From contig JAZBRS010000014.1 of the NCBI GenBank assembly GCA_037176725.1, forward strand, positions 79,590,501 through 79,654,500: a DNA stretch of 64,000 nucleotides, in the 5' to 3' direction. The notes beneath the pieces were generated by a model. The model did not search any database. It was not told the origin of the DNA and was given only the letters and a program-made list of their open reading frames with translations. This document shows positions 4,621-56,166 of the stretch, in pieces; position 1 is the first letter of the stretch, and each line of letters starts with the position of its first letter. The stretch comes from Posidonia oceanica. Lineage: Eukaryota > Streptophyta > Magnoliopsida > Alismatales > Posidoniaceae. Both the position numbers and the translations under genes were made by a program.

Positions 4621-5076
4621 CTACTGATAGTACTTCTTGAGGTAGCACATGTTGACCGGCTCAGACTGCTCGACCTGGTCCATGTCCTCAAGAGTTACTG
4701 CGCCGCCTGAGAAGATCTGCTTAACTACAAAGGGTCCGCGCCAATTAGGTCGGAATTTGCCTCGACCGTCTGGTAGATGAATGGCACGCAGAACAAGATC
4801 TCCGGGCTGGAAGCTTCTGGGCCGGACTTTCTTCAAGAATGCTCTAGCCATTCGCTTCTGATAACAATGGGCATTGTGCATGGCTTGTAGTCTGTGCTCA
4901 TCAATCAGGTTCAGCTGGACGCAGCGGTCTTCGACCCATTCTGCCTCTTCCAACTCGGCTTCTCGCAAGATTCGCAGCGAGGGGATCTCCACTTCAACAG
5001 GCAATACAGCTTCCATGCCGTACACCAGCGAGTACGGGGTGGCTCCTGTCGAGGTCCGGATTGATGTCCTGTACGC
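4621..5076 (-). CDS. pol (3' part): Integrase C-terminal part of element A pol (after in-frame TAG)
   Basis: This segment continues the pol frame directly after the TAG at 5077-5079. The first residues, AYRTSIRTSTGATPYSLVYG, are the classic motif that follows the integrase core in plant Ty3/gypsy elements. A GPY/F-type module follows: GKFRPNWRGPFVVK, then SGGAVTLED, and the frame ends at 4621 with TAG. It binds DNA and helps position the integrase on viral-like ends by family analogy. There is no methionine at the break, so this part is translated only if the TAG is read through or is not real. The residue position of the TAG is normally tryptophan in elements with the ALWAYRT pattern. Confidence 0.88.
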   Translation of the reverse strand, partial: AYRTSIRTSTGATPYSLVYGMEAVLPVEVEIPSLRILREAELEEAEWVEDRCVQLNLIDEHRLQAMHNAHCYQKRMARAFLKKVRPRSFQPGDLVLRAIHLPDGRGKFRPNWRGPFVVKQIFSGGAVTLEDMDQVEQSEPVNMCYLKKYYQ

Positions 5077-8061
5077 CTAGAGTGCGTACGGGAGCTGATC
5101 ATGCCAATCCTTGTGGGTTTCTGCCATCTTCTTCATGATCTTGATGATGTTCTTGTTGGCAGACTCCACTGCTCCATTCATCTGAGGCCGGTATGGTGAG
5201 GAGCGGTGATGCTTGATTCTGAAATTCTGTAGGAACTCCTCAGTTCTTTTGGCAATGAAGTTCGTGCCATTATCAGAGATGATGGAGTGAGGGACCCCGT
5301 ACCGGGCAACGATGTTGTTTCGGATGAACTTTTCGGTTGCCACTGCGGTGACTGTCCTGTAGGAAGCTGCTTCCACCCACTTAGTGAAGTAGTCTATTGC
5401 CACCATGATGAAGCGATGGCCATTTGAAGCAGCAGGGTGTATTGCGCCAATGACGTCGATCCTCCAAGTGGAGAAAGGCCATGGCGAGGACATGTTGTGC
5501 AGCTGATGAGGGGGAGCCTTGATGAAATTGCCATGGATCTGACAGTTGTGGCATTTACGCACGAAACGGCAGCAGTCCGCTTCCATGGTTTGCCAGAAAT
5601 ACCCTTGGAGCATGATCTTCTTAGCTAAAAGGACACCGTTCATGTGCGGGCCACAGGTCCCGGCATGCACTTGAAGCATTAAGGTGTCAGCCTCTGGTTT
5701 GTCCAAGCAGCGTAATAGCATCTGATTGTACGATCTTCTGTACAACTGCCCAGCCCCCAGTACATACTTTGACGCCAGACGTGCCAGAGTTCTCTTATCT
5801 TCTGCAGTGGTGTCAGATGGGACGCTACCGGACTCCAAGAATGCTTTGATATCATAATACCATGGCTGCTCCGCTGTCGGATCTGCCTCCTCTATATTCA
5901 TGCAATGGGCAGGCTCCTCAATGCAGGTGACTGACACATCTACCATGCTGTTGTCTGGTATGCTGAGCCAAGAAGCCAAGGTCGCTAATGCGTCTGCATA
6001 CGCATTTTTTGCCCTATTCATGTATGTGAAATCAATGCTCTTGAACTCCTCTATTAGCCTCAGCAGACATTCGTGATATGGCACGAGCTTGGGGTCTTTT
6101 GTCTTCCAGTCGCCATTCGCCTGAGAGATTACCAACATGGCATCACCGTGCACGTGCAACTTCTGTGCTTTGTGCTCGAGGGCGACTTTCAAACCCAAGA
6201 TGCATGCTTCGTATTCTGCTTCATTGTTCGTGCATGCGAAAGTCAGCTTCCTCGCAAAAGGAATCATCTGTCCATAAGGTGTGGTCAGCACTGCGCCTAT
6301 GCCCCGACCCTTCTTATTGACGGCGCCGTCGAAGTACAGCCGCCACTGCTCTTGCTCTTCAGGATCTTCCTCTTCTGAGTCCTCCGTCGCAAAAAGAATG
6401 TCCTCGTCAGGGAACTGTGTCTGGAGGGGTTGATATTCAGGCAGAGGGAAGTCCGCGAGGTGATCCGCCATAGCCTGGCCCTTCATAGATCTCTGTGTGA
6501 CAAAAGTGATGTCATATTGGGACAACAACACCTGCCACTTGACACATCTGCCCACCAGAGCCGGCTTTTGGAAGAGGAACTTGATGGGATCATGCCGGCA
6601 CAAAAGCTGAACCGGGTACGCCATCATATAGTGCCTCAGTTTCTGTGCGGCCCAGACAAGGGATAAACAGGTTTTCTCCATCACGCTGTACCTGGCTTCA
6701 CATTCATTGAACTTTTTGCTCAGGTAGTAGATGGCGCGCTCTTTCCTGCCAGATTCGTCGTGTTGGCCCAGGACGGCGCCCATGGAATGCTGTGTGGTTG
6801 ACAGATAGAGGAGCAGAGGTCTTCCTGGTGTGGGAGGGACCAAGACTGGGGGCTTGACCAGCAGCTGCTTGATCTTCTCAAATGCGGCTTGACATTCTTC
6901 ATTCCAGTCGATTTGTGCATTTTTCCTCAGGAGTTTGAAGATGGGCTCGCAGATGGGCGTGAGCTGTGCAATGAAGCGGCTGATGTACTGTAAACGCCCA
7001 AGTAGGCCTCGAACCTCCTTCTCGGTTCTAGGGGGTGGCATCTCCACGATGGCTTTAGCTTTCATCGGGTCCACTTCAATCCCTCTTTGGCTAACAATGT
7101 AGCCGAGCAGTTTGCCAGATGAAACCCCGAATACGCACTTGTTGGGGTTAAGCCTCAGTCTGTACTTCCTCAGACGGTCAAAGAGCTTCTTTAGGCAACT
7201 AAGGTGATCCTCAGGCTCCTTGGTCTTCGCGATCATGTCATCCACATAGACCTCCACTTCTTGGTGCATGAGGTCGTGGAAAAGTGTGGTCATGGCCCTC
7301 TGGTATGTTGCGCCAGCATTCTTCAACCCAAACGGCATAACCTGATAACAGAAGACCCCCCAGGGGGTGATGAACGAAGTTTTTTCCATGTCTTCTTCTC
7401 CCATCTTGATCTGATTATAGCCGGAGAAGCCATCCATAAAGGACAGCATCTTGTGGCCTGCGGTATTGTCGACTAGGACGTCAATGTGAGGCAATGGGAA
7501 GTCATCCTTGGGACTCGCCTTGTTCAGGTCCCTGTAGTCGATACATACCCGGATCCGGCCGTCCTTCTTGGGCACTGGCACGATGTTTGCAAGCCATTCA
7601 GGGTAAAGGACGACCTTTAAAAAGTTAACATCAAGCTGCTTCATTATTTCTTCCTTGATCATGAGCAGCCACTGTGGTCGCCATCTTCTCAGTTTCTGCT
7701 TTACTGGCTTGGCATCTGGCTTCAAGGGCAAGTTATGGACCACTATTTCGACATCCAGGCCGACCATGTCCTCATAAGTCCAAGCGAAGACATCCGCGTA
7801 CTCCCTCAGGAATGCGATGAACTCTATCCTGACTTGTGGTGATAGCAGGGCACTGATGCGAACTTCTTTGGTTTCTTCGGCTGTACCGAGGTTAATAGTC
7901 TCCGTTTCTTCCTCAACATGCAGATTGGGACCTTCTGGGTCGTCGTCACAGGGCCGGAACTCAGGCGATGGGTCATCACTCTCATCTTCGCCTGTATTAT
8001 CCTCCTCTCCGTACGCAACAAGTTCCGAGAGAATCTCCTTTTCGAAAGTGGGGTTCGTCAC
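5077..8061 (-). CDS. pol: Element A pol: reverse transcriptase, two RNase H domains, integrase core
   Basis: 994 residues in the gag-pro frame. The RT domain runs from about residue 120 to 300, with IRVCIDYRDLNKASPKDDFP, then FMDGFSGYNQI and the catalytic YVDD at about 272-275. The first, gypsy-type RNase H follows (about 390-500: LLLYLSTTQHSMGAVLGQ, YSVMEKTCLSLVWA). A second, archaeal-like RNase H starts at WRLYFDGA (catalytic Asp near 578) and includes NNEAEYEACILGL and ANGDWKTKDP. This pair of RNase H domains defines the Tat lineage. The integrase shows an HHCC finger (VHAGTCGPHMNG ... CCRFVRKCHNCQ, about 785-830) and a DDE core: Asp in WRIDVIGAI, Asp in IISDNGTNF, Glu in GAVESANKNI. All catalytic residues are present. 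The segment ends at a TAG (5077-5079) inside the integrase. Confidence 0.97.
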   Translation of the reverse strand: MTNPTFEKEILSELVAYGEEDNTGEDESDDPSPEFRPCDDDPEGPNLHVEEETETINLGTAEETKEVRISALLSPQVRIEFIAFLREYADVFAWTYEDMVGLDVEIVVHNLPLKPDAKPVKQKLRRWRPQWLLMIKEEIMKQLDVNFLKVVLYPEWLANIVPVPKKDGRIRVCIDYRDLNKASPKDDFPLPHIDVLVDNTAGHKMLSFMDGFSGYNQIKMGEEDMEKTSFITPWGVFCYQVMPFGLKNAGATYQRAMTTLFHDLMHQEVEVYVDDMIAKTKEPEDHLSCLKKLFDRLRKYRLRLNPNKCVFGVSSGKLLGYIVSQRGIEVDPMKAKAIVEMPPPRTEKEVRGLLGRLQYISRFIAQLTPICEPIFKLLRKNAQIDWNEECQAAFEKIKQLLVKPPVLVPPTPGRPLLLYLSTTQHSMGAVLGQHDESGRKERAIYYLSKKFNECEARYSVMEKTCLSLVWAAQKLRHYMMAYPVQLLCRHDPIKFLFQKPALVGRCVKWQVLLSQYDITFVTQRSMKGQAMADHLADFPLPEYQPLQTQFPDEDILFATEDSEEEDPEEQEQWRLYFDGAVNKKGRGIGAVLTTPYGQMIPFARKLTFACTNNEAEYEACILGLKVALEHKAQKLHVHGDAMLVISQANGDWKTKDPKLVPYHECLLRLIEEFKSIDFTYMNRAKNAYADALATLASWLSIPDNSMVDVSVTCIEEPAHCMNIEEADPTAEQPWYYDIKAFLESGSVPSDTTAEDKRTLARLASKYVLGAGQLYRRSYNQMLLRCLDKPEADTLMLQVHAGTCGPHMNGVLLAKKIMLQGYFWQTMEADCCRFVRKCHNCQIHGNFIKAPPHQLHNMSSPWPFSTWRIDVIGAIHPAASNGHRFIMVAIDYFTKWVEAASYRTVTAVATEKFIRNNIVARYGVPHSIISDNGTNFIAKRTEEFLQNFRIKHHRSSPYRPQMNGAVESANKNIIKIMKKMAETHKDWHDQLPYAL

Positions 8062-8178
8062 ATCGAAGGAGTGTAGGAGTTCTGCTTCTTGGCCCTAGTG
8101 ACGCCTCAGGATGGTCACGCCTACCCGAGTGTTTCTGAATCTTCGGTGTGCGACCTCTGCTCTGGCAGCTTCTGCTGT

Positions 8179-10206
8179 CTACTCTGCTGCTGATGACACT
8201 ACTGCATGTTCTGCTGACACTACTGAAGGCCTTACTGACTCTGTGACTGATACTGCTGATGATTCTGCCACTGAAACTTCCGACAGCTCTGTCACTGACT
8301 CTGCTCTTTGCTCTGTTACTGCTGCTGTGCAACCCGCTGGTGTCTCTTCTTCTGAATCTGCCAACGTACTCGTGGAAGGCATATGCTGTACAAGCCATCT
8401 GGACCCACCCTCGGTTTGAAAAGTAATGAGCTCGTCGGGTCTGAAGGACTCCGACACCACCGAGCTTTCTCCGAGGACCATGATGGGGGTGGAGCCCTCT
8501 CGCAGAGGAGGATCCGTAACCACGGCTTTTCCTTTCCTTTCTGCGGCTTGGTGTCGTGCCAGGTCTTCTACTATGGATTCGAGCTGTTCTTGGTAAAGCA
8601 GTTCCAAATCCGACATCCATGAATCGACTTGGGCTTCTACTGCCCCTTCTTCTTCCTCATCTGGAGGTGAATCAACATAGTAGGTGCCGAGGGCCTGAGG
8701 CACTGGCTCGGCTGCGAGATGGATTGCTGTCTCTGATACTTGTACCCTCTGACTCACGGGCGCGCCTGGTTGCGTCTGTCCCGGCAGGGGAGACCCAGAT
8801 GGTCTAGTCAGAGGGATTGCCGATGGATATGCTGCCAGAGTGACTGCGGCTGTTAGAGGATGGGCGGAGGTGCTCTCTTGAAGGCCCGAGGGCCGGGAGA
8901 CCGCGATGCTCAGCTGGTTCTCCGTGACTGATGATGATGATGAGAGCGCGGCCTCCGATGCCATAGGATCTGGCCATGAAAATTGCCGGTCTGCGGCAAG
9001 GGGAAGTGTGACTGACTGAACTGGCTGTATTGCCTGTGATGTGGCCTTTGAAAAGGGCTGAGCTGTGCTGCTGACTGAACTCAGCGATTGACCTTTCTGC
9101 GAAGGTGGTAGTTGCATTGATGCGACAACGGTCGCCTGCGAACTGACTGACTGTGCTTGAGCTGGTGCTGATATTGCTGACATGGCTGCGGGAGAATCAA
9201 AGACTGCCAAATCTGCCAAGGGTTCTGCCAAGACTGCTGCTTCATGATCTATGGAAGGAGTGGCCAAATAAACCGACTGATGTACTGTTGCATTGGGCTG
9301 GCTTTCACTGCAAGTCTGAACTGCCCCTGTTGTGTCCGACTGTTCCTCGTCCGAGTAATAGTCCTCAACGCAGACCCAGTCCTCCTCCGGTGGCGGAGGG
9401 CTTTGACACGGCTCTGACGGCACTACGGCTTGAACTGCGCTTGAGTCCAGGATACCCGCACTCGTAAAGTTGGCCAAGCTCCGAGGTATGACCATTCTCT
9501 GATTCTTTGCTTGCGGGCGCTTGCCTTTATCGGAGTGAGGGTCGTAACCTAGACCCTCGTTGTCTCTTCGTTCTTCTGCCATGATCGGTTCAGCGATTCC
9601 TTGGCCATGTCGCCCGAGCGGTGTCCCTTTGACGTAGCCCCATCTGTGACAAACGTTCTCGACCATCCGAAAGGGGTTGTTGTGAACGGCCAAGGAGTTG
9701 ACACGTTCAAGATCTGGCAAAAAGTTAACCGGCTCGCACCGATTAACGCGATACAAAGCGTTCGAAAGATCAGGGTCGAAGGGGATAGTCCGCGAAGAGA
9801 TAGAAGAAACCGCCTCGATCCGCTCCTTCTCAAAATTCTCCGCCATGACAACGATGACATCGTCACCTCGACGGAACTTGATCATGCGATGGAGGGTCGA
9901 GGGGATAACTTGATGCTTGTGGAGCCAAGGGCGCCCAAGCAGAAAGTTGAAATTAGGTTCCAAGTCGACGACGTAGAATTCCACATCGAATGTGACCGGG
10001 CCAATGGTAAGAGGGATAACCAAAATCCCTAGAGCGTCATGGTGAGTATTATCAAAAGCTGTCATTCCCTTTACAGCTGGAGTAATGTCCTCGGCCTTGA
10101 ATCCGAGCTTGGTTGCTGTTCGCAAGGGACAGACGTTAAGGCCCGACCCATTATCGACCAGTGCAAGGGGAATGCGAAAGTTCTTGAATTGTACCGTGAC
10201 GAACAA
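8179..10206 (-). CDS. pro: Element A protease with G-patch-like motif and long Ser/Thr/Ala-rich linker
   Basis: A retropepsin-type aspartic protease at the N-terminus: active-site VDNGSGLNV (about residues 16-24; Asn follows the catalytic Asp, as in other Ogre/Tat elements), then ALGILVIPLTIG and FNFLLGRPWLH, the second conserved protease motif. At about residues 168-195 lies GYVKGTPLGRHGQGI, a G-patch-like motif known in Tat proteases. The remaining 450 residues are a low-complexity linker rich in Ser, Ala, Val and Glu (repeats like SVTE). The frame is the same as gag: translation is open from the gag TAG (10264-10266), and the residues before the first Met (VITFTSDELP and following) match the usual start of Ogre-type protease. 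A TAG ends the segment at 8179-8181 and a further in-frame TAG lies at 8095-8097 before RT. Ogre elements have an intron near this junction; none is needed here. Confidence 0.93.
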   Translation of the reverse strand: MFVTVQFKNFRIPLALVDNGSGLNVCPLRTATKLGFKAEDITPAVKGMTAFDNTHHDALGILVIPLTIGPVTFDVEFYVVDLEPNFNFLLGRPWLHKHQVIPSTLHRMIKFRRGDDVIVVMAENFEKERIEAVSSISSRTIPFDPDLSNALYRVNRCEPVNFLPDLERVNSLAVHNNPFRMVENVCHRWGYVKGTPLGRHGQGIAEPIMAEERRDNEGLGYDPHSDKGKRPQAKNQRMVIPRSLANFTSAGILDSSAVQAVVPSEPCQSPPPPEEDWVCVEDYYSDEEQSDTTGAVQTCSESQPNATVHQSVYLATPSIDHEAAVLAEPLADLAVFDSPAAMSAISAPAQAQSVSSQATVVASMQLPPSQKGQSLSSVSSTAQPFSKATSQAIQPVQSVTLPLAADRQFSWPDPMASEAALSSSSSVTENQLSIAVSRPSGLQESTSAHPLTAAVTLAAYPSAIPLTRPSGSPLPGQTQPGAPVSQRVQVSETAIHLAAEPVPQALGTYYVDSPPDEEEEGAVEAQVDSWMSDLELLYQEQLESIVEDLARHQAAERKGKAVVTDPPLREGSTPIMVLGESSVVSESFRPDELITFQTEGGSRWLVQHMPSTSTLADSEEETPAGCTAAVTEQRAESVTELSEVSVAESSAVSVTESVRPSVVSAEHAVVSSAAE

Positions 10207-10263
10207 GGGTTGATTGTGATTAATCCCTGTCAGAGGCAGTTCATCACTCGTGAAAGTAATGAC

Positions 10264-13200
10264 CTAGGGCTCCGCGATCATTCCGACCATGCTTTCCAAA
10301 GCGGCGGGCTCTATGGCTTGGGACACACGGGCGGCTTGGAACACGCGAAGGAAGGCTTCGCGATGCTCGGCAGAAGTGTGTATCAGGTCCCAGATGGATA
10401 TGTCGGCTTTGACTTTTTTGAGCTGGGATGTGATGTCGGCTTTAGGCTGGCATTTCTTGGTAGCAGGTGGTGCAGTTGTAGGGACAGGTTCAGCTATGGT
10501 GGATTCAAGAGGCTGGCCTGAAGGTGGTGGGACTGCAGGCTGGACCAAAGGCAATGGTCTTGCGGGTTGTGGATGACTAGGTCTGGTTATTGGTGCCGGA
10601 GGTCTGTAGACCCTCCCCGATCGCGTCACTTCCGCACACATTTCTGTGGCGTAGCTGTAGGGTACGCGATGGGTATCCCGGGTCAGGTTAATAACCACGG
10701 GAGCGCGTGCGGCGAGCACGAGAGGGGCTGCAGGCTGAGGAGGGCATGGGTAGGTGGGTAGTTGGGAAGACAAGCTAGGTGGGGACTGAGGTCTTGCTAG
10801 TAGGTGCACGGGAAGCTCTGGCTGAGGTCTGACTAGGAGATGTATTGGGGCTTGGGCCCGGGAAAGCATGGCGGCTAATGCAGGAGAACGCTCCGGCCTG
10901 GCTCGCGGTCGGATCATATGGACGCCCGACTCGGAACCGGCGATAGCTGCAAGATAGAGAGAGACTGGAAAGGGAGTAGAAACATCATGGATAAGCTCGG
11001 AAGGATCTACCACAGATGTGGGAGACCCAGAGGGAAACAAGGAGTGAATTCCTGAGGTCCCTGCGCCTCCTGAATAGGAGTGCTCCAGCAGGGGTCGGCG
11101 GACAACATTAGCTGGGGTAGATGCTGATGCAGGTGCATGAGATGGTGCAGAAGTGGATGCCTCGTGCGTGTCGATCACAATCGTTCCAGATTCGATCAAG
11201 TCCTGGATAGCATTCCGGAGAGTGAAACAACTATCAGTCGAATGCCCGACACTTCGATGAAAGTCGCAGAAAAGGTTCGCCTTAAACCAATGCGGTAGTG
11301 GGTTTGGTGGCGGGCGAACCTCTGGAAATCGCAGGAGCGACGCAACCTTCGGGAGGACGGCACTGAGCGGTTCCACCAGTGGGGCGAACTTCCGCTTTTC
11401 CATGGGTGGCTGTCTCGGCCTCGGGAATTGTCCTTGCTGAACCGGTGCGGCAGGATAGACCGGTCGAGCGGTGGTAGTGATTTGTGGTGTAGGGTGTGCC
11501 CTAGGTGCAGGTGCGTAATAGATCTGAGGAGGGGCAGGCCGGGACGCCAGACGGACGGGCGCAGCAGGGGAGTCGACGTATGCAACAACGGGCTTCGGCG
11601 GATCCTTCCTCTTGGGACGATTGTTGTTGAGACTGCTGTTGTTGTTGATGGCGCTGCTGCTACTACCGTCGTTGCTGGCGAGGGCCTGCCTGGCAAGCAC
11701 AGAGAGTGCGGGGAAGTTGCCACTCCGCAACGAACTCTCTACGCGAGTGCCAGCTTGGATCAATGCAGTGAAGGTTGTGACGGGTTGGATGCTAAGCAAA
11801 GCTCCGGTAGACGGCTGTGCCCCTTTTATGATGATCTCGATAGACTCCTCGTCGGAGGGCCTATCTCGAACTTGCGAGGCAAGGGCACGCCAGCGGCCGA
11901 CGTACTCCCCGAATGGCTCGCCCGGATTCTGCTTGGTTGCGATCAAGTCCGCGCGCTTTGGGACCAGATCGAGGTTGAAGGAGTACTGTTCCAAGAACGC
12001 CTGGCTTAGGTCGTTCCAAGTCTTGATCGTAGCCATGTCAAGCGAGGTGAACCACTTGAGGGCCGGACCAGACAAACTCTTCTGGAACAGGCGGATCAGC
12101 AACCTCTCGTCCGCCTGGAGTTGGGCGAGATCACTGCAGTACGCCTTCAGATGGGCTATGGGGCAGCCCCTACCATCATACTTCTCGAAGTCCGGTATTT
12201 TGAACTTCGGGGGGAGTACCGCCTCTGGGAAACAGCAGAGGTCTCGAAACTGGTAGGTCTGGTGGTCCGTGCCCTGCACTAGACGCAGTGCTTTCTCCAG
12301 AACATCCATCCTATTGTTGATGGGGTCTGGAATAGCTGCTGCAGGAGATGGGGCAGCGGGGGCGGGGACCACGTATGCCGATTGGGTCGCACCGAGGTGC
12401 TCCTCCGGATCCACCATCACGTCGCCTGGTGACGCAAGGTGATGGCCGGCATACCCGTGCTGTGGTGGAGTGCAAGGAGGGATGCATGTGGAATTCTGAG
12501 CCTGATGCAAAGGGGGAGGATAAACGGTATGCTGTGCGGTGGGTGCAGGATGCTGGAGCATCAACGACCGTACCGGGGCGATGCCGGGGGACGGGCCTGC
12601 GAGATACTGTGCTCCCACCAGTCCGAATGACTGACCACCAGGTGGCGGAGGTGCATGCTGTGTGAGGTGTGGTGCTGATGCAAGAGGCGGAACACGTGCC
12701 CCCATCGTCGGAACCGTGAGCAGTTGGGACGATGGTCTAGGCGGAAGTGCAGAGTGCAATGCAAGATGTGCGGGAGTAGGCCGCACAGGAACCTCAGGAA
12801 CAACAGGAGGGGAAGGAGGACGGACTGATAGAGCTATACCCTGCAGCCGCTGGATAGTGTCCATCAGTTGCTGGTACTGCTCTTCAGGTGTCCCGTCAGT
12901 GGGAACACTGAATTGCAGTGCCGGCGAGGAACCAGAACCAAGAGATCCGGACTGTCCGGGAGACTGGAATCCTAAGGCGTGAGTCGCCGCAGTAGAAGGG
13001 TCAAAAGTGACAAAACCCTGAGAAGGTGGGGTCAGTGGTGCCTCCAGAACACGTGAAGTGGTCATCAAGATGGACTCGGCGACTGGATCAGGAGGAACGG
13101 GCGTCTGCCACTGTCCCACAGCAAACTGGGGTGCCCCAGACGACAGAGGGGAAAAGCCTGGCGTCACAGAGGGCACAGAGGGGTTAGAAACGGGAACCGG

Positions 13201-13404
13201 AGGGGCCGGAGCGGGAACCACCTCCGAGGCAAGGGTGAGGGGGGTCTCGACAGTGCGCTGGGCCATTGCTGACCGAGAGCGAGTCAAAACGGGGCTGCGA
13301 CGAGGGAAAAGGGGACGGGCTCTACGAGGAGCTATGCTCGCAAAGACGAGTAGCTCAGAAAAAGGGATGGTCGAGCACAGGTGTCTCAGCAGAGATGTCA
13401 GCAA
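10264..13404 (-). CDS. gag: Element A Gag (capsid/nucleocapsid precursor)
   Basis: 1046 residues from the first Met; a start at residue 47 (MAQRTVETPLTLAS, codon at 13264-13266) is more plausible because the upstream part is Arg/Ser-rich and not conserved-looking. The N-terminal third is rich in Pro and Ser. The retrotransposon gag domain is at about 390-540 (FKIPDFEKYDGRGCPIAHLK, PALKWFTSLD, FLEQYSFNLDLVPKRADL, GEPFGEYVGRWRALASQV). A zinc-binding motif C-X2-H-X4-H-X4-C (CDFHRSVGHSTDSC) sits near 705-718, the knuckle variant typical of Ogre/Tat gags. Gag packages the RNA and forms the particle. It ends with TAG at 10264-10266, after which the protease continues in the same frame. Confidence 0.94.
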   Translation of the reverse strand: MLTSLLRHLCSTIPFSELLVFASIAPRRARPLFPRRSPVLTRSRSAMAQRTVETPLTLASEVVPAPAPPVPVSNPSVPSVTPGFSPLSSGAPQFAVGQWQTPVPPDPVAESILMTTSRVLEAPLTPPSQGFVTFDPSTAATHALGFQSPGQSGSLGSGSSPALQFSVPTDGTPEEQYQQLMDTIQRLQGIALSVRPPSPPVVPEVPVRPTPAHLALHSALPPRPSSQLLTVPTMGARVPPLASAPHLTQHAPPPPGGQSFGLVGAQYLAGPSPGIAPVRSLMLQHPAPTAQHTVYPPPLHQAQNSTCIPPCTPPQHGYAGHHLASPGDVMVDPEEHLGATQSAYVVPAPAAPSPAAAIPDPINNRMDVLEKALRLVQGTDHQTYQFRDLCCFPEAVLPPKFKIPDFEKYDGRGCPIAHLKAYCSDLAQLQADERLLIRLFQKSLSGPALKWFTSLDMATIKTWNDLSQAFLEQYSFNLDLVPKRADLIATKQNPGEPFGEYVGRWRALASQVRDRPSDEESIEIIIKGAQPSTGALLSIQPVTTFTALIQAGTRVESSLRSGNFPALSVLARQALASNDGSSSSAINNNSSLNNNRPKRKDPPKPVVAYVDSPAAPVRLASRPAPPQIYYAPAPRAHPTPQITTTARPVYPAAPVQQGQFPRPRQPPMEKRKFAPLVEPLSAVLPKVASLLRFPEVRPPPNPLPHWFKANLFCDFHRSVGHSTDSCFTLRNAIQDLIESGTIVIDTHEASTSAPSHAPASASTPANVVRRPLLEHSYSGGAGTSGIHSLFPSGSPTSVVDPSELIHDVSTPFPVSLYLAAIAGSESGVHMIRPRARPERSPALAAMLSRAQAPIHLLVRPQPELPVHLLARPQSPPSLSSQLPTYPCPPQPAAPLVLAARAPVVINLTRDTHRVPYSYATEMCAEVTRSGRVYRPPAPITRPSHPQPARPLPLVQPAVPPPSGQPLESTIAEPVPTTAPPATKKCQPKADITSQLKKVKADISIWDLIHTSAEHREAFLRVFQAARVSQAIEPAALESMVGMIAEP

Positions 13405-14596: not shown

Positions 14597-14957
14597 CTGT
14601 AGCGATCCCGGCGTTCGGATCGTCCATGCACGATGCCAAAGCTCGCGTGCACCGATCGGAATCAGGCTCACTATAAGCGGCTATGTCCGAGAAGGAAGAC
14701 CTAACTCGAAAACATTTAAAAGAAGGAAAAAAGGAAAGAAAAGAAGAAGATAAGACAAAATCGAAGTCGCCACCAAGTCTATTAAATCGGAAGACGAGGA
14801 AAACCGGGGAAATGCGCGAACAATCACGCAAAACCAAGCAAAAGATGCAAAGCAAAGCAATGCAAAAGAAATAAGATGCAAATGAATGCAAATGAATGCA
14901 AATGATGTGACTCGTGCCTAGGACAAGGGCAATATGGTCATTGCGGGCCAAGAGAGG

Positions 14958-15040
14958 GTAAGGACTCCTGTTACGCGCGGGGAAGGTGTTAGGCACCCCC
15001 GACACGCCCGAGAATCGGTCTTTCTAGGCTTACGCTCGCA
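14958..15040 (-). promoter_or_regulatory. Conserved LTR block with GGTG-CCTAA-CACC hairpin (element A copy)
   Basis: On the sense strand this contains AGACCGATTCTCGGGCGTGT, then GGGGGTGCCTAACACCTTCCCC-type sequence followed by ACAGGAGTCC. The same block is present in the solo LTR at 33344-33427, B at 35000-35075, D at 49345-49435 and E at 60144-60232, while surrounding LTR sequence differs widely. GGTG and CACC can pair around CCTAA, with an outer GGG/CCC extension. Function not known. Confidence 0.8.
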
Positions 15041-15459
15041 TATGCAGGGAAATGCAGACTTTGAATGCCTAAGTGCCAATGAATGCCTGTCTAAATGCTC
15101 AAAGGTGTGCTCTAAGTGACGAAAGACGATGCAAGGAAGTAAACGTGCAATCTAAACGCTCAGCAACGCTGTCTGTGTTCCGAACCAGGCGGAATCTGGC
15201 TCGTGTGAACTCCGGACAGTAAGCATCACCGCCCTATATGCAAATGCGGGCGATAAAACAAAACAGTGAGAAAACCATGCAATGCAATCGACATGCAAGG
15301 GAAAACGGCGTAAAACAATGCGAGGATCGAGACAAGTATGCAAAAAGATGCGAGAACAAGGTTGACATGCAAAATGGGGCAAGAAATGGGACAAGAACGC
15401 AAAACCGTGCGAGAAAACGAAAGAAGGGCGCAAAACTGGGCAAGAAAACACCAGGGCAT

Positions 15460-24355: not shown

Positions 24356-24359
24356 TTTA

Positions 24360-25250: not shown

Positions 25251-25302
25251 AACTTCCAGGTATTGGTATTCCCATCATCTTCGTGGTCAATAAGTCCGAA
25301 AC

Positions 25303-26165: not shown

Positions 26166-26177
26166 GTGTTTTGCTGC

Positions 26178-41133: not shown

Positions 41134-44100
41134 TACAATTATATGGAATTGTAGGGGGATTGGTAACTTGCCCACTATTTCTCACCTCAAGAAAATTATT
41201 AAGAAGCATAATGTGGCACTTATAGGCATCCTGGAGCCTATGTTAGCTGAGGACAGAGCTAAGGCTATTTGCAATCAGCTTCGGATGGACAGGTATTGGG
41301 TCAACAATGAGTCTGATTCTAAAATTTGGATTCTCTGGAAAGATTCTATTTCATTGGTTAATACTCTTAAGACTGATCAATCTTCATCCTTTATTGTGAG
41401 CAATGATGTGGGAATGGATTTCCAGTTCTCTTATGTCTATGCTTCTACTGAGAAGACCAAGAGAAGGTTGCTTTGGGTAGACTTGCTGAACTTGGGAGCC
41501 ACTACCTCATTGCCTTGGGTCTTGGGAGGAGACTAGAACGCGGTGCTTAGCTCTGCTGATGTGGTTGGGAGAGGGGAGTTTGATTTTCCCAGCTCTAATG
41601 ACTTTGGTGATTTCATCCAATTTACGGGGCTAGATGAGCCTCCTCATGAGGGTAACTTTCTTTCCTGGTGCAATAACCGGCAACGTATTGATAGAATTTA
41701 CAAGAGGTTGGACAGAGTGTTGGGAAATGCTGAATGGCTTGACAGGGATTCTTGCTCCGTTACTTATTTGGACAGGATCTATTCAGATCATGCCCCTATG
41801 CTTGTGCATAGTAAAGCTGATTGGTCTGGTGGACCTACTTCCTTTAAGTTCCAAACAATGTGGATAGAACACCCCAGTTTCCTGGATTTTGTGAGATCCA
41901 AATGGGAGTACTCTGCTAGTTCTAACCCTATGCTGAATTTAAGTTGGAAACTAAAAGGTCTGAAGAAGCAATTAAAATGGTGGAACAAGAATGTTTTCGG
42001 GAACATAAATGTGCGTCACGATAGCCTCCTGTCTGAATTATCTAGGTTGGATGAACTACTCAAAATTGAATGGTCTGATGATCTTTGGGATAATTATTCT
42101 GCTATCCGGAAAGAATTTATTGAAACTAAGAAGCAACAAGAAATCTTTTTGAAACAAAAAGCTAGGATCAACTGGTTGACAGTTGGTGACAAAAATAGTA
42201 AGTTTTTTCATTCTAGTGTGCAAGAGAGGAGGAGAAATAATGTTTTTTCTTCTCTTGTGCACGAATTTAACAATGACAGAGATGAGATGAGAAGTCAAGG
42301 TAGATCTTTTTTTATGAATTTGCTTAAGGAAGAGGGTAGGTGCTTGAATCCTGATATCATTAATGTTATCCCAGCTAGAGTGAATGTTGATGATAATCTT
42401 AAGCTCAGCGCAGTTCCCTCTAAGGAGGAGATTCAAAGCACTGTTTTTAGTATGGAACCAGACAACTCTCCAGGGCCTGATGGTTTTACTGCAATTTTCT
42501 TTAAAAAGTGCTGGGATTTTGTGGGGAGTGATGTGGTGAATGCCATTCAGTCTTTCTTCAGTGGTGATGCCCTCCCTAGAAGCTGGAAAGCTACTTTTTT
42601 GGCTCTCATTCCCAAGAAGGAGATAACTAAGGGTTTTGGGGACTTTAGGCCGATTAGTTTATGCATTGTCTGTTACAAAATTGTATCCAATATCTTATCT
42701 GACAGGTTGAGTGGTATTTTGCCTAAACTTATATCGCTAGAGCAAGGGGCTTTTGTGAGTGGGAGGCTTATACATGAAAGTATAGCTCTTACTCAAGAAC
42801 TCATTCAGCACATTGATAATGGCAAAGAAGGGGGAAATGTTGTTCATAGTATCGATATGGAGAAAGCATATGATAGGCTCAATTGGGATTTTTTGTTTGC
42901 TGTCTTGAAAAAGTATGGCTTCTATGATAATTGCATTAGTTTGTTAAAGCAATGTGTGGAAAACAATTCCTTCTCAGTTATTGTGGATGGGAGTTCCACT
43001 GATTTTTTTCTTGGCACGAGAGAATTGCGACAAGGGGACCCTATTTCTCTAGCTTTGTTTGTTCTCGCCGAGGAGGTCCTTAGGAGAGGTATCTCTAAAC
43101 TTCTGAAGGATGGTAGCATCTTGCCTTATTATGTGCACAAAGATTGTCCTATTATCACTCACTCCCTTTTCGCTGATGATACTATCATTTTTTTAAATGG
43201 TAGAAGGAGCTCATTATTAGCCCTCATGAATCTGCTGAATGAATATTAGGCTTCTTCTGGGCAAAAAATAAACTCTTCTAAAAGCTGCTTTATTGTCTCC
43301 CAAAAAACGGTTAATGTCAGATTGAATATCATTCAAGTTGTTATTGGATTTGCTAGGGGTTGCCTTCCTTTTACTTATCTTGGCTGCCCGATATTCAAAG
43401 GATTATCTAAACAAATATATTTTGAAGGCATGGTCCAGACTATATTGAAGAGGGTTAAAGGATGGAAGTCTAAATTCTTATCCCCAGGTGGCAAACTTAT
43501 ATTGATCAAGCATGTTCTCACCAGCATTCCCATTCACATGTTATCTGTTTATGATGTCCCAGGGGTGGTGCTAGACAGAATCAATAGAATCATGGCTAAC
43601 TTCCTTTGGGGGGATCAGGAGGGGGTCCATAAAAGACACTGGATTGGTTGGAGTACAATTTGCTCTACATTTGAAGAAGGTGGGCTAGAGATAAGACAAC
43701 TCAGAGATGTTATGATGGCCCTCAGAATGAAGTTTGCGTGGAGGGTGCATAATTCTGGCTCTTTATGGGCAGCTTTTATGAGGGCAAAGCATGGGTCTAT
43801 GGCTGAGGATGTTACCATGATCAGAGGCACAGCTAGGTGGAAGAAGTTGCAAAAGGCTTGGCTGTCTATGAGGGATCATATCCAGTGGACTATCAGCAGA
43901 GGGAAGTTGAGTTTTTGGTTTGACAATTGGTCCACTTTGGGACCACTTGTGAAATCACTGACACTCATATCCATGAACCTGCTCTGGCTGTTCATGAGGT
44001 ATTCAATAGCTTCAATAGAATCTTTGAGATGAATCTACCTAACAGTGTGCTTCATGAGATTCTTCACCTCAATATTGATATTACAGAGGAGGATGATGCC

Positions 44101-45255
44101 ATGCAGTGGGGTTTGAATGTTGATGGGGATTTCACTGTTAAATCGGCCTGGGAACTTTGTAGAGCCAAGAAAGTTTCTAAATGGTGGGGCAAGGGTATTT
44201 GGGATAACTTCCTTCCTACTAAAATATCTTTTTTCCTTTGGAAAGTGCTATGGGGAAGGCTGGCCACGGAGGATCGCATCAAACAAATGGGTATTGCCCT
44301 TCTTTCTAAATGCATGTGCTGTAAATTGAGGCCACAAAGTGAAGATGCTGTGCACTTACTGTTTGAAGGGGAATGGGCGACCATGTGTTGGAAGTGGCTG
44401 ATCAATATCTTCTAGATGAGGAACAAGGCTGACAAGTCCTTTTTTCAATGGCTTCAAGTTCTGTTTCAAAGAAGGAGTAAAGAGTCTTTTGTGCAAAAGT
44501 TCAGAAGGGTGCTTGCAGCTGTGATGCTATGGGAGATCTGGAAAGCTAGATGCTCTAGCAAATATGGTGGGAAGGAGGTTAAAGTATTTCAAATATTCTT
44601 GAAAATTAAAAGCTGGACTGATGATCATGCTTTTTTGATGCAGGGAATGAAATGCTATAATCCTAAGGAGGCGCGTATTCTCCTCAACCTGAACATAGTT
44701 GACATTCAACCTGTTAAAGAAGTCAATACGATTGTTTATTGGTTTAGACCTCCTTTTAATGCTTACAAACTCAATGTGGATGGTGCAGCCAGAGGGAATC
44801 TAGGGCCTGGTGGAGGAGGTGGGATCATCAAGGACCACAATGGCGACATGGTGGCAGCCTTCTCAAATTACTATGGGAAATGCACCAATACTGTTGTGGA
44901 ATTCCAAGCTCTCAAGGATGGTCTATCACTTTATCTTAGTCTGGGCCTAGATCTTGAGAAATTAATTGTTGAAATGGACTCCAAAGCCCTTGTTGACATG
45001 CTGCGGTTGAATAAATGTCTTCATTGGCGAATTCAACAATACTAGACTGAGGTGTGCTCCAAAGTTCACAAGGTTATCGATATTAATCACATTTATAGAG
45101 AGGGCAATGGTCCGATGGATGCGTTGGCAAATATTGGGATTGAAACACTTTGTCTAAAAAGGTATCACTCGTGGAAAGTTTTACCTAAGATGGTAAAGGG
45201 ATTCATTGTTCTGGAAAAGGGTGGTCTGCCTTATATCAGGGTTAAATTCAACTAG
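41126..45255 (+). pseudogene. LINE 1 ORF2: endonuclease, reverse transcriptase, zf-RVT, RNase H
   Basis: Starts MINTIIWNCRGIGN at 41126. The AP-type endonuclease (about 41126-41840) keeps NCRG, GILEP, GGD (then TAG where Asn is preceded by Trp in LINE 2) and SDHAPML. The RT region shows PGPDGFTAIFFKKCW, ATFLALIPKKE, DFRPISLCIVCYK, EQGAFVSGRLI, DMEKAYDRLNWDF, LRQGDPIS and catalytic FADDTIIF (about 43170). A zf-RVT region follows (WWGKGIWDNFLPTKISFFLW, about 44180-44250), then a C-terminal RNase H (LNVDGAARGNLG, VVEFQALKDGL, EMDSKALVDML, about 44775-45010). Lesions: TAG at 41534, 43247, 44413, 45043; a one-base deletion near 43952; no TGA or TAA in frame. Ends with TAG at 45253. Needed for target-primed reverse transcription. 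Confidence 0.92.
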
Positions 45256-45785: not shown

Positions 45786-45834
45786 CAACCAAAACCAAAC
45801 CTAAACCCTAAACCAAACCCTAAACCATAAACCC

Positions 45835-48822: not shown

Positions 48823-49475
48823 TTGCAGATGGCTGACAGCCATTTTAAAGCGCCGATTTTGTTTCGCTCGTCGTTTCTCGCGTTTTATTACTTCTTTGGC
48901 TTGCTGCAACCCCTGTGCATGTTACCCACCCCTTTGTCTTGGTTTTGCACCCCACTTCGCATCGTTTTCTGCATTTTACATCGTTTTCCATGTTTTGCAT
49001 CGCTTTTCCGCTCCTTTGCATAGTTTTCCATGCCCCTTTGCATCGCTTTCCGCCCTTTGCCTCTTTTTCCGTGCGTCGCATTGTTTTCCGCATTTTCGCA
49101 CCATTTTCCGCACCCACTTTGCTTTATCACTTGCATTGCTTGGTTTCCCTGCAGTTTTGCTTTATCGCTTGCATCTACATTTAGGGCTATGATGCTTACT
49201 GCTTAGGAGTTCTCACGAACCATGGTCCGCCCAAATTGGAATACTAGCAACGTGGCTGAGCACATAGATAGCACGTTTATTTCCAATGCATAACAGGTAG
49301 GCATTCATGGCATTTAGACATTAGGCTAGCATTTCCCTGCATTAGCGCGAGATTGCCTAAAAAAGACTGACTCTCGGACGTATCGGGGGTGCCTAACACC
49401 TTCCCCATGCGTAACAGGAGTCCTTGCCCTTTCTTTTGGCTCGCATCGACCTTTCCTTTATCCTAGGCATGAGTC

Positions 49476-49507
49476 ATAGCATAGCATAGCATAGCATAGC
49501 ATAGCTT
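49476..49507. repeat. (CATAG)n microsatellite
   Basis: About six copies of CATAG in a row (GTCATAGCATAGCATAGC), located between the conserved block and the LTR end in solo LTR D. Confidence 0.85.
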
Positions 49508-52041
49508 AGCATTGCATTCCTTTGCCCCTCCTTGCATCTGGTTTTGCATGTCTTTTCATACTGAACCCCCAGTTTTCCCTGTCTTCCAATTCAATAGACC
49601 TGGTGGTGACTCCGATTTTGTCTTATCATTTCTTTTCTTTTCTTTTGCCAGCGTTTCCGAGTCGAGTTCCTTCCCTCAGATCCAGCCGCATATAGTGAGC
49701 CTATTTTGATCGGTGCACACAAGCTTTGGTAACGTGCATGGACGATCAGAATTCAGGATTACTACACATGGCACCTGAGGAAGGTTCCCGCCGATCTCGA
49801 GTAACTCCATGCAGTCTCTTCCGAAGGATGGCGACAAGCAGCCACCTCATGTTGACTCTTCTGCCACGCTTGCCCCTCCTCATCGGGAGGCTCTTGGAGG
49901 AGAGGACCCCTTAAAATCTCCTCCGCTATTTAAGAATACCAGAGCTGCCCCGGAGAAGCCTAAATCCTTTGCTGTTGCTACTAGGGCTTCTCACCAAGTT
50001 CCCAATTTCCCTGGCATGACTGTTAGGAGTCTGGTAGTGGTTGATGGTGAGGAGTTGGTTAGGTTTTCTACTACAGAAGTTTCTCAAATGGCTTTAGCAT
50101 TCACATGGACTATGATTGGGAAATTCAGTACTGGCAGGCAGGCTATGATGGACATTCTCAACGCTATGAAGAGCTCCATGGAATTTTCTGATGATTTTTT
50201 CCCAGTGGCCATTGATCAGTGCCATGTGCTTATCCGTTTTCTGAAAGGGGAGGACTTTGTGGAAGCTTATATAAAGGAGGCCTAGTTTATTAAAGGTAAG
50301 AGGATGCGTGTATTCAGATGGTCTCCAAATTTTGCTCCTGGTTCAGAATCTACTTGCACTCCAGTCTGGGTGGGATTACCTACTCTTAGAGCTCATCTTC
50401 AAGATCCTAGAGCAGTGCAATCTATTGCTGGCCTTCTTGGTAAGTTTCTGTGCATGCATAATGATGTCACAAAATTTACTAGGCCGGGCTATACTTACAT
50501 TTGTGTTGAAATTGATCTTGCTAAACCCCTGAAAAGAACTATAAAAATTGATAATGGTGGTGAAATAATAGAGCAGATGGTCGATTATGGTAGATTTTTA
50601 CCTCCTTTTTGTCATTTTTGTACTATGGTTGGTCACCATCCAAGTGATTGTAGAAGGCAGTAGCCTATCCCTCCCAAGGAGAACCCAGAGCAGGTTCAAA
50701 AGGAAATAGATATGAATGAAAGGAAAGATAGAAAAATGGCCAAAGGAAAATCCAAAAGTGCTAAAAAAAGAGCTAAGAAGAAGGTTAAACTAGTTGGTAT
50801 GATCTCTAAAAAGGGCAAAGCTTAGATTGGAATTGTCTTCAAAGAGGGCAATTTAGTTTAGGAGACAACGGAAATTGAGGTAGCCAAACAATTGTCTCTC
50901 AAGAAGGATAAAGGAAAGAGCGCTGTTATTGAGGGGAAGGCTTCTGAGGATTTTGATGAAGAGGAATGGATAGCTGTTAAAAACAAGAATAAGTTATTCA
51001 GAGGCGAGGCATCTACTAATTGGGCAGCCAAGGAGCAGCAAGTAAAGCCACCTCTCTTTCAGGAGTTAGAACAGATGGAAAAGTCTTCTGGTAAAGCATA
51101 TTTACATTTGGAGGGAGCTGCTGAGACAAAGGGTATGCATCCTCTAGATGAGGTTTGTCCTTCTAAGGATATGGCCAATGATAATACTCAACCAAGAATA
51201 GAAAGGACTCCAAAGGGAAAGAGATCTGATAGCAGGAAGAAGCAGAATACCAGGTTATTAAGGAGCCAAGAATTTATCGATCAAAGCATGCAAGTTGAAA
51301 AAGATCAGTCCAGTCAGAAAGGTGAAAGGCCTAGTGTGAGAACTAGAAAAGAGTTAGCACAGAGAAAGGAACAGCATGTTGCAGAAACACAAAATGTTAA
51401 TGACAAGTTGGAAGCTATGATCAAGGCAAGCCATAATAGCTTGGAGGTGAAAAAGGAATTAGTTGGGGCTATCCAAGAAGATTCTTCTGATGAGCTGCTG
51501 ATGTTAGGCTCTAGCAAAAATATCAGGGATGATTTTTTGATGCTGAGAAATGCTAATTATTCAATGGCAGAAATTAAGGAGGCTTGCCCAGCATTGATTG
51601 GGGTAGCACAAGCTTTGCATATTGATTTCCAGAATGAGGTTCAAATGGAAGGGACTCCTAGTAGTGATGATGGGCCAAATGAACATGAGGACTTCTGGGA
51701 ACCCCACTACTCTGATCTTGCTTTTATTAGATTGAATAAGCAAGCTTCCTCTACTGAGGATGGAGGGTCAGATGGTGATGAATTAAGTGAGTTCATATCT
51801 AATGACACTGATCCACCTTGGATCCCTGGTATGGGAGATGAGCCCCTAGATCTGTCTACTCCCCTTACTAATGCTGTTGTTGATTCTGATTCTGGGATGG
51901 CTGAGCTGGAAGTGAAGGATGGCAGAGCTTTTTCTGATGGGGAGAAGGTCATTACCAAGAGTAGGACTTATAACCTCAGAAAGAGATTGAAACTACCAGG
52001 TAGATTGAAAGGTCAATCTCACCATTCTGATGATAGTTATC

Positions 52042-55000
52042 ATGGTTGATGCAATTATCTAGAATTGTCGAGGTGTTGGGAATACTTCTACTTTAGCTCA
52101 TCTTAAGAATCTGGTTAGTAAATTCAAAGTCCCAATTGTTGCTTTGCTGGAGCCTATGATTGCTGGGGATAAAGCCAACAGAATCATGAGTAATTTGAAG
52201 ATGGATCACTTATGGATCAATGTAGTAGCTGATAATAAGATTTGGGTTTTCTTGAATAACTCTATTTCTTTAAAAATTTTTTCTGATACTGGCCAAGCTT
52301 CTACTTTTCTAGTGAAGAATGAGCTGAATGAAGAAATTTATCTATCGATTATTTATGCTGCTTGTGATAGAATTCTCAGAAGGGATTTATGGGTTGATTT
52401 GCTGAATTTTAGTTCTTTAATTGACAAACCTTGGCTTCTGGGAGGTGATTGGAATTGTATAACGTCTTCAACTGAATGTATTGGAGGGGGGGTTTGATTT
52501 TCCCAGTGCGGATGATTTTTCTGACTTCATGCAAATGTCTGGTTTAGGGGAGATGGCTCATAATGGAAATTTGTTTTCCTGGTGTAACAATCAACAAGGA
52601 GTGAGTCGTATTTTCGAAAGACTGGATAGGGTGGTTGCTAATGTGGAATTTCTGGATACCTTTCAGTTCACGGTCTCTTACCTTCCTAGGGTCCACTTAG
52701 ATCATGCTCCTATGCTGGTTAGAAGAAATGAAGTTTGGAAAGGGGGGCCCATTCCTTTTAGATTCCAATCTATGTGGATCTCTCATGCTAACTTCCATGA
52801 GTTCATCAGTGATAAATGGAATTTCAACTCTGGTCTTCCCCCTATGCAAAACTTGTCTTTTAAACTTAAAGGTCTGAAGCAACAGTTGAAGGTTTGGAAT
52901 AAAAATGTCTTTGGGAACATTCAAGTCAGAAAGGAGGTGCTCTTATAGGAAATGAATACTCTAAGGGAAACCCTGCAGATGTCTTGGTCAGATGACTACT
53001 GGAGTAAGCTAGTTGAGGTCAGGAGGAACTTCTTTGAGTCTGAAAAGCAGTATGAAATTTTTCTCAAGCAAAAAGCTCGCATTGATTGGTTATCTGCTGG
53101 AGATAAAAATACCAAGTATTTCCATTCCACTCTAATGGAGAGAAGAAGGAATAATCCTTATTCAAAGCTGCTTGAAAGTGTCCAATTTTCTAGAGATAAC
53201 TTGAAACAGAAGGGCAAGGACTTTTTTGAGAAACTGTTAAAAGAACAAGGGTGTACTAGAGATGAGAATCTATTGAACTTTATTCCATCTCCTGTTGGTG
53301 TGGAAGATAATATTATGCTGTGTGCTATTCCAGATGATAAGGAGATTAAAGAGAGTGTGTTTTCTATTGCTGCTGACAGTGCCCTAGGGCCTGATGGTTT
53401 TTCAGCTAATTTCTTCATTGAATGCTGGGATGTTGTAAGGGTTGATGTTATCAATGCTGTGAAAGGCTTTTTTAAAGGTGAGGAGTTGCCTAGAGGATGG
53501 AAGGCCACTTTCCTAGCTCTTATTCCCAAGAAGGATAGTCCTGATAATTACTCAGATTTTAGACCAATTAGCCTATGCAATGTTTGCTATAAATTTATTG
53601 CTAAAATTTTGGCTAATAGACTGGGTCGGATACTACCTAAGCTGGTGTCTCAGGAGCAAGGGGCTTTTGTCTCTAGAAGACTTATCCATGAAAATGTGGC
53701 TCTTACACAGGAATTAGTGCAGAGCATTGATGGTGGGCTGGAAAGTGGTAATGTGATTCTGAACATTGACATGGAGAAAGCCTATGACAGACTAAATTGG
53801 GAGTTTCTCTTTGCTGTTCTAAAGAAATTTGGTTTTTCTTTGAGTTGGGTGGAGCTTATAAAGAATTATGTCAAAGATAATTATTTTTCAGTTCTTATTG
53901 ATCAATCTTCCTCTGAATTTTTTGCTAGTTCTAGGGGGTTGAGGCAGGGTGACCCTATATCTCCTACTTTGTTTGTGCTGGCAGAGGAAGTTCTTAGTAA
54001 GGGGATAAGTTATATGGTGGAAAATTAGTATATCCTTCCTTACCATGTCCTTAATAATTGCCCTTTAGTTACTCACTCACTATTTGCAGATGATACCATA
54101 ATTTTTTTGAATGGGAGGAGAAGTTCTTTGAACTGTGCCATGAGCTTCCTTAAATCTTACCAGACTACTTCTGGACAGAAAATTAGTCTTAAGAAGAGTT
54201 GTTTCTTTGTGTCAAACAAGATGGCGGCCTCTAGAATGAAAATGATTCAGGAGATTACTAGGTTCACAAGAGGTAAGTTACCTTTTATCTATTTAGGCTG
54301 CCCTATCGTCAAAGGCAGGTCTAAGCAAGTTTATTTTGAGGAGGTTGTTAAAAAAATTTCCAAGAAGGTGGTAGGTTGGAAATCGAAATAGTTATCTCCT
54401 GGTGGTAAGTTGATTCTGCTCAGGCATGTTTTATCTGGCATGTTTTATCTTGTATTCCAATTCACACCCTTTCAGTTTTTGATATTCCCATGGTGGTGGT
54501 TGAGAGGATCAATAGAATTCTATCTAACTTTCTTTGGGGGGAGAGTGATGGCTCTTTGAAAAGACATTGGGTGTCATGGGATACTGTAATGACCACTTGT
54601 GATGAGGGTGGGTTCGGCATCAGAAAATTTATTGATATCATGAAAGCGTTGAGAATGAAATTTGTTTGGAGGATTCAAAACTCTGATTCTCTTTGGGCTA
54701 GGTTCATGAAGGCAAAGCATGGTATCATGGCTGAAGATATTAATGAAGTAAAAGGCACTGCTAGGTGGAAGAAGCTGCAGGTGGCTTGGATTACTTTGAA
54801 GGATCACATCCAGTGGACGGTTGGCAAGGGTGATGTGCTTTTCTGGTTTGATAACTGGTCTCACATGGGGCCTCTAGCTGAAGTTACTGATGTTGAAGTT
54901 GTGAACCCTCAATTGAAGCTACGTGAAGTCTTAATCGAGGATGAGAATATCTATAAATTTGGCTTCCCATATGAGATTCTTGTTGCTCTACTTAGAGGTA

Positions 55001-56166
55001 ATATATCATTATCTGAGGAGGATGATATCATGCATTGGGATCCAGAAGTTGATGGTATTTTCAGAGTCAAGTCTGCCTGGGGTATCTGTAGAGACAAAAG
55101 GGTGTTGCAATGGTGGGGTAAAGGGATTTGGGATGCTGCATTGCCCACGAAAATATCCTTTTTCCTTTGGAAACTTCTTTGGCGTAGAATTCCTACTGAT
55201 GATATCCTTAACCGTATGCATATTGCAGGTCCTTCTAAGTGTTCTTGTTGTTGCAGGTTACCTCATTGTGAATCAGTTTCCCACTTATTTTTGGAAGGGG
55301 AATGGGCTAGGGATACCTGGGCTTGGTATTGTACCAACTTCCATATTGAAATGCCTAAAGGTGTAATGCTGGAAGGGTGGCTCCGCATTGTGCTAAGGAA
55401 AAGGAAAAGAGACAATTTTATTGCTAAATTGAGAAGGCTTATGGCAGCGGTTGTGTTGTGGGAGTTATGGAAAGCTCGTTGCAATTCCAAATTGGGAGGA
55501 AACACTATGGTCTTATCCCAGCTGATTTTTATTCTCAAATTATGGATTAATGATCTTTCACCTCTTTTGCAGGGCCTTAAATTTAAAGGAGCTAAGGAGA
55601 AGCAAATCCTAGGGAATCTACAGATTCTTGGAGTGGAAGTTGCAAGAGATCATTCTCTCATTGCCTGATTTTGTAAAGCTCAATGTTGATGGAGCTTCCC
55701 GGGGCAACCCTGGTCATAGTGGGGGGGGGGGAATCATCAGGAATCACAAAGGAGATTTGCTCAAAGCTTACTCTAATTATTATGGGTTTTGTTCAAATAT
55801 GGTGGATGAGTTTCGTGCTTTGAAGGATGGCATTTACCTTGCTCTGGAAATGGGGATAGATCTCAGCAAACTGATTGTAGAATCAGATTCAAAAGTGTTG
55901 GTTGATATGTTGCATAGAGCCAGCTGTGAACAATGGCAACTTCAAGCTCACTGGAAAGAGAGGTTCTAGGGCTTATTAATAAAACGTTTTTGGTGCAGCA
56001 TTAGTTCCGAGAAGGGAATGCTATTGCTGATAATCTAGCAAATGTGGGTATTGATACTTGCACTTACATAACTTATGAGAACAGAGCTGATCTTCCAACT
56101 GTTGTGAAGGGTGCCTTGATGTTGGAAAAATCAAGGTTGCCGTATATAAGATTAAAACATGGCTAG
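52042..56166 (+). pseudogene. LINE 2 ORF2: endonuclease, reverse transcriptase, zf-RVT, RNase H
   Basis: Starts MVDAII at 52042 and reaches TAG at 52060 where LINE 1 has Trp (IIWNCRG). The endonuclease region keeps NCRGVGN, ALLEPM and GGDWN; its SDH motif is LDHAPML here (Ser lost). RT motifs: LGPDGFSANFFIECW, ATFLALIPKKD, DFRPISLCNVCYKF, DMEKAYDRLNWEF, LRQGDPISPT, FADDTIIF (about 54085). zf-RVT: WWGKGIWDAALPTKISFFLW; RNase H: LNVDGASRGNPG, ESDSKVLVDML (55680-55905). Lesions: TAG at 52060, 52946, 54026, 54389, 55967 and 56002; a frameshift in the G run near 52490; a 14 bp tandem duplication at 54424-54451; frame changes near 55650 and 55985. Ends TAG at 56164, the same place as LINE 1. Confidence 0.9.

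Follow-up and report, generated by a model that had tools for sequence, protein, structure and literature searches.

In fungi, the process known as RIP kills repeats through C-to-T changes, with CpA as the preferred target. C-to-T changes also kill the repeats described here, but they occur in CHG and CG contexts and are spread over all copies. For plants, mutation associated with CHG and CG methylation is already known (PMC12994199). In the passages of PMC12994199 that bear on the present case, plants show a CHG>T mutation signature whose rate predicts CHG depletion. Differences between species in the CHG>T rate are, by the same account, not predicted by their genome-wide average of CHG methylation, so the level of methylation does not explain everything. 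Our observations resemble this signature in that C-to-T change is raised at CHG and CG sites over CHH sites and in that the sites are depleted. However, PMC12994199 used polymorphism in 108 eukaryotes, whereas here two LINE families of a single genome were compared and the signature is read out as stop identity; stop codons receive no mention in the same passages.

The CMT3-type CHG methylation treated in part of PMC5221884 provides a further point of comparison, because CAG/CTG in heterochromatin is there the densest CHG-methylated target. That account groups CAG and CTG above CCG, whereas in the copies studied here CAG exceeds CTG by 1.5x and CCG is close to CTG (15/252), although it is decay rather than methylation that is compared in our case. 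An excerpt of PMC8547701 gives average methylation levels of 82% CG, 67% CHG and 4% CHH for maize transposable elements, and PMC8275611, in the portion consulted, reports that deamination lowers GC in Welwitschia. Two aspects may have been less noticed, namely that a single CHG change writes only TAG among the stop codons and that CAG decays faster than CTG.

The window, by which we mean the whole 64,000-nucleotide stretch of DNA that was analysed, lies in a plant assembly of 2.96 Gb and 80 contigs. Three retrotransposons in the window carry conserved frames that are interrupted by stop codons (Table 1). The domains of element A, found by scanning three pieces separately, follow the order gag, protease, RT-RNase H and integrase, as in Ty3/gypsy elements. 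No direct LTR pair flanking element A was found within the window, and the second LTR may sit beyond base 1. A 424-amino-acid frame on the minus strand (2090-3364) with a plant mobile domain (PMD, DUF7745) adjoins this element. The Pfam domains recovered from the two ORFs of LINE 1 constitute the plant LINE set, and a Pfam scan of the head of LINE 2 ORF1 (49812-50282) yielded no match. Taken jointly with the decay explanation developed below, we consider it highly likely that these are three ordinary dead plant retrotransposons.

Table 1. Frames of the three retrotransposons in the window, with the stop codons that interrupt and end them.
Feature	Positions	Strand	Type and domains	In-frame TAG stops	Frameshifts	Terminator
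Element A, gag-pol frame	4621..13266	-	Ty3/gypsy-type LTR retrotransposon; Retrotrans_gag, aspartyl protease, RVT_1, RNase H, RVT_3, integrase	10264, 8179, 8095, 5077		TAG 4621
LINE 1 ORF1	38424..41133	+	DUF4283	38727	near 39350	TAA 41131
LINE 1 ORF2	41129..45255	+	RVT_1, zf-RVT, RVT_3	41534, 43247, 44413, 45043	near 43945	TAG 45253
LINE 2 ORF1	49812..52049	+		50283, 50661, 50823, 50859		TGA 52047
LINE 2 ORF2	52042..56166	+	RVT_1 and zf-RVT in scanned pieces	52946, 52060, 54026, 54389, 55967, 56002	several	TAG 56164

The original prediction, made from the window sequence, held that 19 premature stops in these elements are all TAG, that ten are preceded by C, and that all fit C-to-T changes at CHG sites. 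Re-reading the codons bears out the first two statements: all 19 are TAG (four in element A, five in LINE 1 and ten in LINE 2, with no TAA or TGA), and C precedes 10 of the 19, including three of the four in element A. These counts apply to frames that were set by homology, with approximate frameshift junctions, and they leave out a TGA at 55666 in LINE 2 that is present only after a deletion or frameshift. The two ORF1 terminators are TAA and TGA, as had been noted; yet TAG ends both ORF2s and element A itself. The fit of all 19 stops to CHG is true but holds by construction. Any TAG can be derived from CAG, and any C-preceded TAG can be derived from C-TGG. Such a fit is therefore no proof in itself, and ancestral codons from relatives are needed.

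Therefore, following a check that had been named with the original prediction, more copies of the LINE families were aligned and the stops were tabulated by ancestral codon. This comparison covers the 15 LINE stops among the 19, and the LINE 2 ORF1 codons come from five of six ORF1 pieces, the sixth being outside the region and dropped. The codons of relatives are CAG at nine stops, C-TGG at five and CGG at one. The exception is 38727, which is C-preceded but is not C-TGG in relatives. Three of four copies carry CGG at this position and the fourth carries CAG, and an ancestral CGG would require one CG-context step plus one CHG step. At 44413, all four copies carry CAG despite the preceding C, rather than C-TGG. 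Copies are mixed at four further positions, where the ancestral codon is accordingly inferred: 50859 (three CAA, two CAG; n=5), 56002 (three CAG, two TAG, one CAA; n=6), 50823 (three CAG, one TAG, one TGG; n=5) and 52060 (11 C-TGG, four T-TGG, two C-TAG; n=17). Several TAG codons of the window recur in sister copies, such as that at 52946 (4/20), which may reflect either hit rates near 9%, at which recurrence is expected, or shared descent. Distant protein homologues were also considered as a guide to ancestral residues. They carry Trp at 50283 (5/5) and at 52060 (11/11), but this approach was rejected as misleading at fast sites, given that none of 74 homologues carries Gln at 54389 whereas 17 of 20 genome copies carry CAG.

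Rates of C-to-T change by sequence context were established from copies of both LINE families in the genome. For LINE 2, searches with a protein piece (69 matches) and a 1.3-kb DNA piece (41 matches), with 30 loci each, gave 43 distinct copies; the 22 more distant ones were dropped, and rates were calculated from 21 copies with >93% identity, the window included. For LINE 1, six sister copies over 1.9 kb, drawn from 40 matches, were combined with the window to give seven copies. A majority rule of 0.7 was used by default and was relaxed down to 0.4, with four thresholds tried. In the LINE 2 family, C-to-T changes are found at 279/3185 CAG (8.8%), 186/3185 CTG (5.8%), 15/252 CCG (6.0%), 104/1073 CG (9.7%) and 224/28080 CHH sites (0.8%), and A:T transitions at 0.3%. 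The LINE 1 family yields 25/406 CAG (6.2%), 19/406 CTG (4.7%), 3/49 CCG (6.1%), 11/210 CG (5.2%) and 18/4235 CHH sites (0.4%), with 47/861 (5.5%) for all CHG. Thus CHG and CG sites decay at like speed in both families, at 9-13x the CHH rate (CG versus all CHG, 9.7% versus 7.2% in LINE 2 and 5.2% versus 5.5% in LINE 1). Such a pattern is what 5-methylcytosine in the two contexts would be expected to leave.

This order of contexts is kept when the majority rule is relaxed to 0.4 in LINE 2 (CAG 0.092, CTG 0.061, CG 0.111, CHH 0.011). Rates in C and G columns, compared without a formal test, are alike for both strands (CAG 0.078/0.094, CTG 0.060/0.056, CG 0.104/0.089). CHG hits are present in all 21 LINE 2 copies at 3-11%, with no burst in a few of them. 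The copy rates therefore uphold decay of CAG and C-TGG to TAG through C-to-T change at CHG, but not the accompanying implication that CG is spared, because CG decays as fast or faster and TGA appears at a CGA codon column. Deviations at positions conserved across LINE homologues are mixed (CHG 1/9 in LINE 1 and 2/10 in LINE 2); in our reading, the majority of them arose before insertion, so that ancient and recent change would be mixed in this spectrum.

The 21 LINE 2 copies contain 65 stops, comprising 28 CAG>TAG, 16 C-TGG>TAG, four other TGG>TAG, three CGA>TGA (all in one codon column), 14 others and no CAA>TAA. Assuming full coverage for all denominators, CAG>TAG occurs at 28 of 525 codons (25 codon columns x 21 copies) versus 0 of 483 for CAA>TAA, and C-TGG>TAG at 16 of 189 versus 4 of 756 for other TGG>TAG. 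When the window copy is set aside, the other 20 copies hold 51 TAG, six TGA and five TAA. CGA-to-TGA and CAA-to-TAA changes had both been described as absent, which is correct for the window. The absence of CAA>TAA extends to the copies, but the single CGA column in the examined LINE 2 stretch has become TGA in 3/21 copies. The lack of TGA from CGA in the window can be attributed to the small number of CGA codons in the CpG-depleted LINEs, whose frames contain six and two (CpG O/E 0.27 and 0.17).

A wider TAG excess is evident in genome matches to the RT domain, where 122/163 stops (75%) are TAG among the best 150 of 78,990 candidates. Two further sets yield 104/141 (best 69 of 14,761 candidates) and 86/114 (best 76 of 13,526 candidates); the three sets overlap, include the window and hold the best-scoring matches. 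However, the excess is not uniform across families: 16 LINE 1-family matches in the third set carry 10 TAG, eight TGA and six TAA (non-TAG 14/24), although frameshifted copies may add false stops to this count. A genome-wide bias, for which a check had been suggested, is thus present at about 75% TAG in scored matches, but TAG-only is not general, as TGA and TAA together account for 18-26% of the stops once counts go beyond the window.

These data also bear on how unusual 19 of 19 is. A chance near one in a billion had been given on the assumption of equally likely stops; context rates and sister copies give about 0.001-0.02 instead. Both the equal-chance null and a composition-only null (TAG share 0.43-0.48, P 1e-7 to 1e-6) were rejected as too simple given the context rates. 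Those rates predict TAG shares of 0.72 for element A, 0.63 for LINE 1 and 0.72 for LINE 2 (about 0.70), which gives P=0.001 for 19/19; the share in sister copies (51/62) gives P=0.024. The TAG-only state of the window is a local extreme draw from a real, wider TAG excess, and it remains a 0.1-2% draw even under the decay explanation.

We favour, as very probable, the explanation that the TAG excess arises from methylation-linked C-to-T decay of dead retrotransposons at CHG and CG sites. In this process, host methylation would cover the CG and CHG cytosines of retrotransposons, with CMT3-type enzymes as the presumed setters of the CHG marks, and deamination of 5-methylcytosine would slowly convert methylated C to T. 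In the CHG context, CAG (Gln) would become TAG in one change, and a C-preceded TGG (Trp) could become TAG by a change on the opposite strand, because that strand reads CCAG. A single CHG change can yield neither TAA nor TGA. In the CG context, the sole stop expected from one change is TGA from CGA, a codon that is scarce in CpG-depleted LINEs. With CHG changes writing only TAG and few CGA codons available, most nonsense codons would be TAG. The direct observations behind this proposal are the context rates in two LINE families, the codons that relatives carry where the LINEs have stops, and the predominance of TAG among scored matches; methylation and deamination as the cause are what we infer from them. 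If so, which stop codons a silenced element carries can give a clue to the methylation context that has been decaying in it, even without methylation data.

The C in CAG decays 1.5x faster than the C in CTG (279 versus 186 of 3185, p=9e-6) in the LINE 2 family over window positions 50990-55903. The difference holds for C columns as well as G columns and under each of the four thresholds, and the LINE 1 family shows the same direction without reaching significance. A general neighbour effect does not account for this asymmetry, because the order is reversed among CHH contexts of the LINE 2 copies (CTH 0.99% versus CAH 0.76%). We tentatively propose, with slightly less than even confidence, that retrotransposon frames in this plant are lost chiefly through CHG methylation, every CAG and C-TGG being one deamination from amber, and that unequal decay of the CAG and CTG strands further favours TAG. 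Such inequality would point to a strand difference in methylation or repair.

An assembly artefact was suggested at the outset as an alternative, in which a basecaller misreads the methylated C of CHG as T and thereby places false TAG codons in elements that are more intact than they appear. The stops do sit where methylated CHG would be, and one LINE 2 frameshift is at a G run. Under the relaxed rule (0.4), hits on CAG sites are mildly clustered (variance/mean 1.41, p 1e-5). However, the values for CAG and for CTG (1.05) are below those for CG (1.62) and CHH (2.89), which argues against bad sites specific to CHG. Hits are near Poisson with the 0.7 rule (CAG 1.14, CTG 0.97), although that rule trims hot sites. 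Miscalls tied to methylation should also ignore the age of a copy. Copies with more CHG hits tend to have more CHH hits (rho 0.53, p 0.015) and more A:T transitions (rho 0.52, p 0.018); the trends with CG hits (rho 0.32) and transversions (0.30) are positive but not significant (n=20 throughout, with the outlier L013 left out). CG is equally raised, which an artefact need not produce, and in the young element A family, 53 copies with 32 CAG/C-TGG codons each show just five stops, in top-scoring matches biased towards intact copies. No documented C-to-T miscalls at plant CHG sites were found among the titles and abstract openings of the nanopore-miscalling literature. We regard miscalling as very unlikely, if marginally less so in view of the clustering check, which also lowers our confidence in the decay explanation very slightly.

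More improbable still is a fast mutator restricted to CHG, such as a plant process akin to RIP that spares CG. Although the TAG-only stops of the window and the 9-13x ratio of CHG to CHH would suit it, CG decays equally (104/1073 and 11/210), CGA has become TGA in 3/21 copies, and every one of the 21 copies is hit at CHG. With CpA as its target, RIP of the fungal kind should also produce CAA>TAA, which is found at 0/483 compared with 28/525 for CAG>TAG. We give least credence of all, almost none, to the idea that TAG is read as sense through amber suppression or a code change, or acts as a programmed readthrough signal. TAG alone interrupts the frames, and the stop at 10264 falls between the gag and protease matches, which are the points in its favour. 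Against this, most sister copies have a sense codon at the LINE sites, mainly CAG or TGG, even though some share the TAG. Frameshifts accompany the stops, and TAG terminates both ORF2s. Other copies of element A carry stop-free frames of ~2.9k amino acids, so the stop at 10264 is not a conserved end of gag. Sister copies should be compared before TAG-only pseudogenes are ascribed to a suppressor host, a code change or a sequencing fault.

Among the 40 scored of 6,940 candidates for element A, 39 other copies share 98-99% identity over 1.5 kb, and the best 54 of 121,408 first-look candidates include at least 53 other copies with 99% protein identity over 833 amino acids. This family has probably undergone a recent and very large expansion. 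The five stops in the 53 copies lie within the 833-amino-acid stretch and are all TAG, and 19 of the 53 have frames of at least 2890 amino acids, read as stop to stop, with no stop in the match. The scored copies are the best-scoring ones and so form a set biased to intact copies.

Repeats elsewhere in the window give a mixed answer on context, being divergent copies. A long inverted pair (14598-20384 and 27997-33714), mostly 77-84% alike and LTR-like by position, has C/T differences at 25/119 CWG sites, which is not above CHH (175/671), while CG (33/95) is above. In the other three sets of within-window pairs, CWG is above CHH. One end of the inverted pair recurs at 49113-49768 and 59843-60569, and the piece at 49 kb lies directly upstream of LINE 2. 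Tandem repeats are present at 1089-1484, 15325-16169 and 25247-26044, with units of 37, 30 and 68 bp, respectively.
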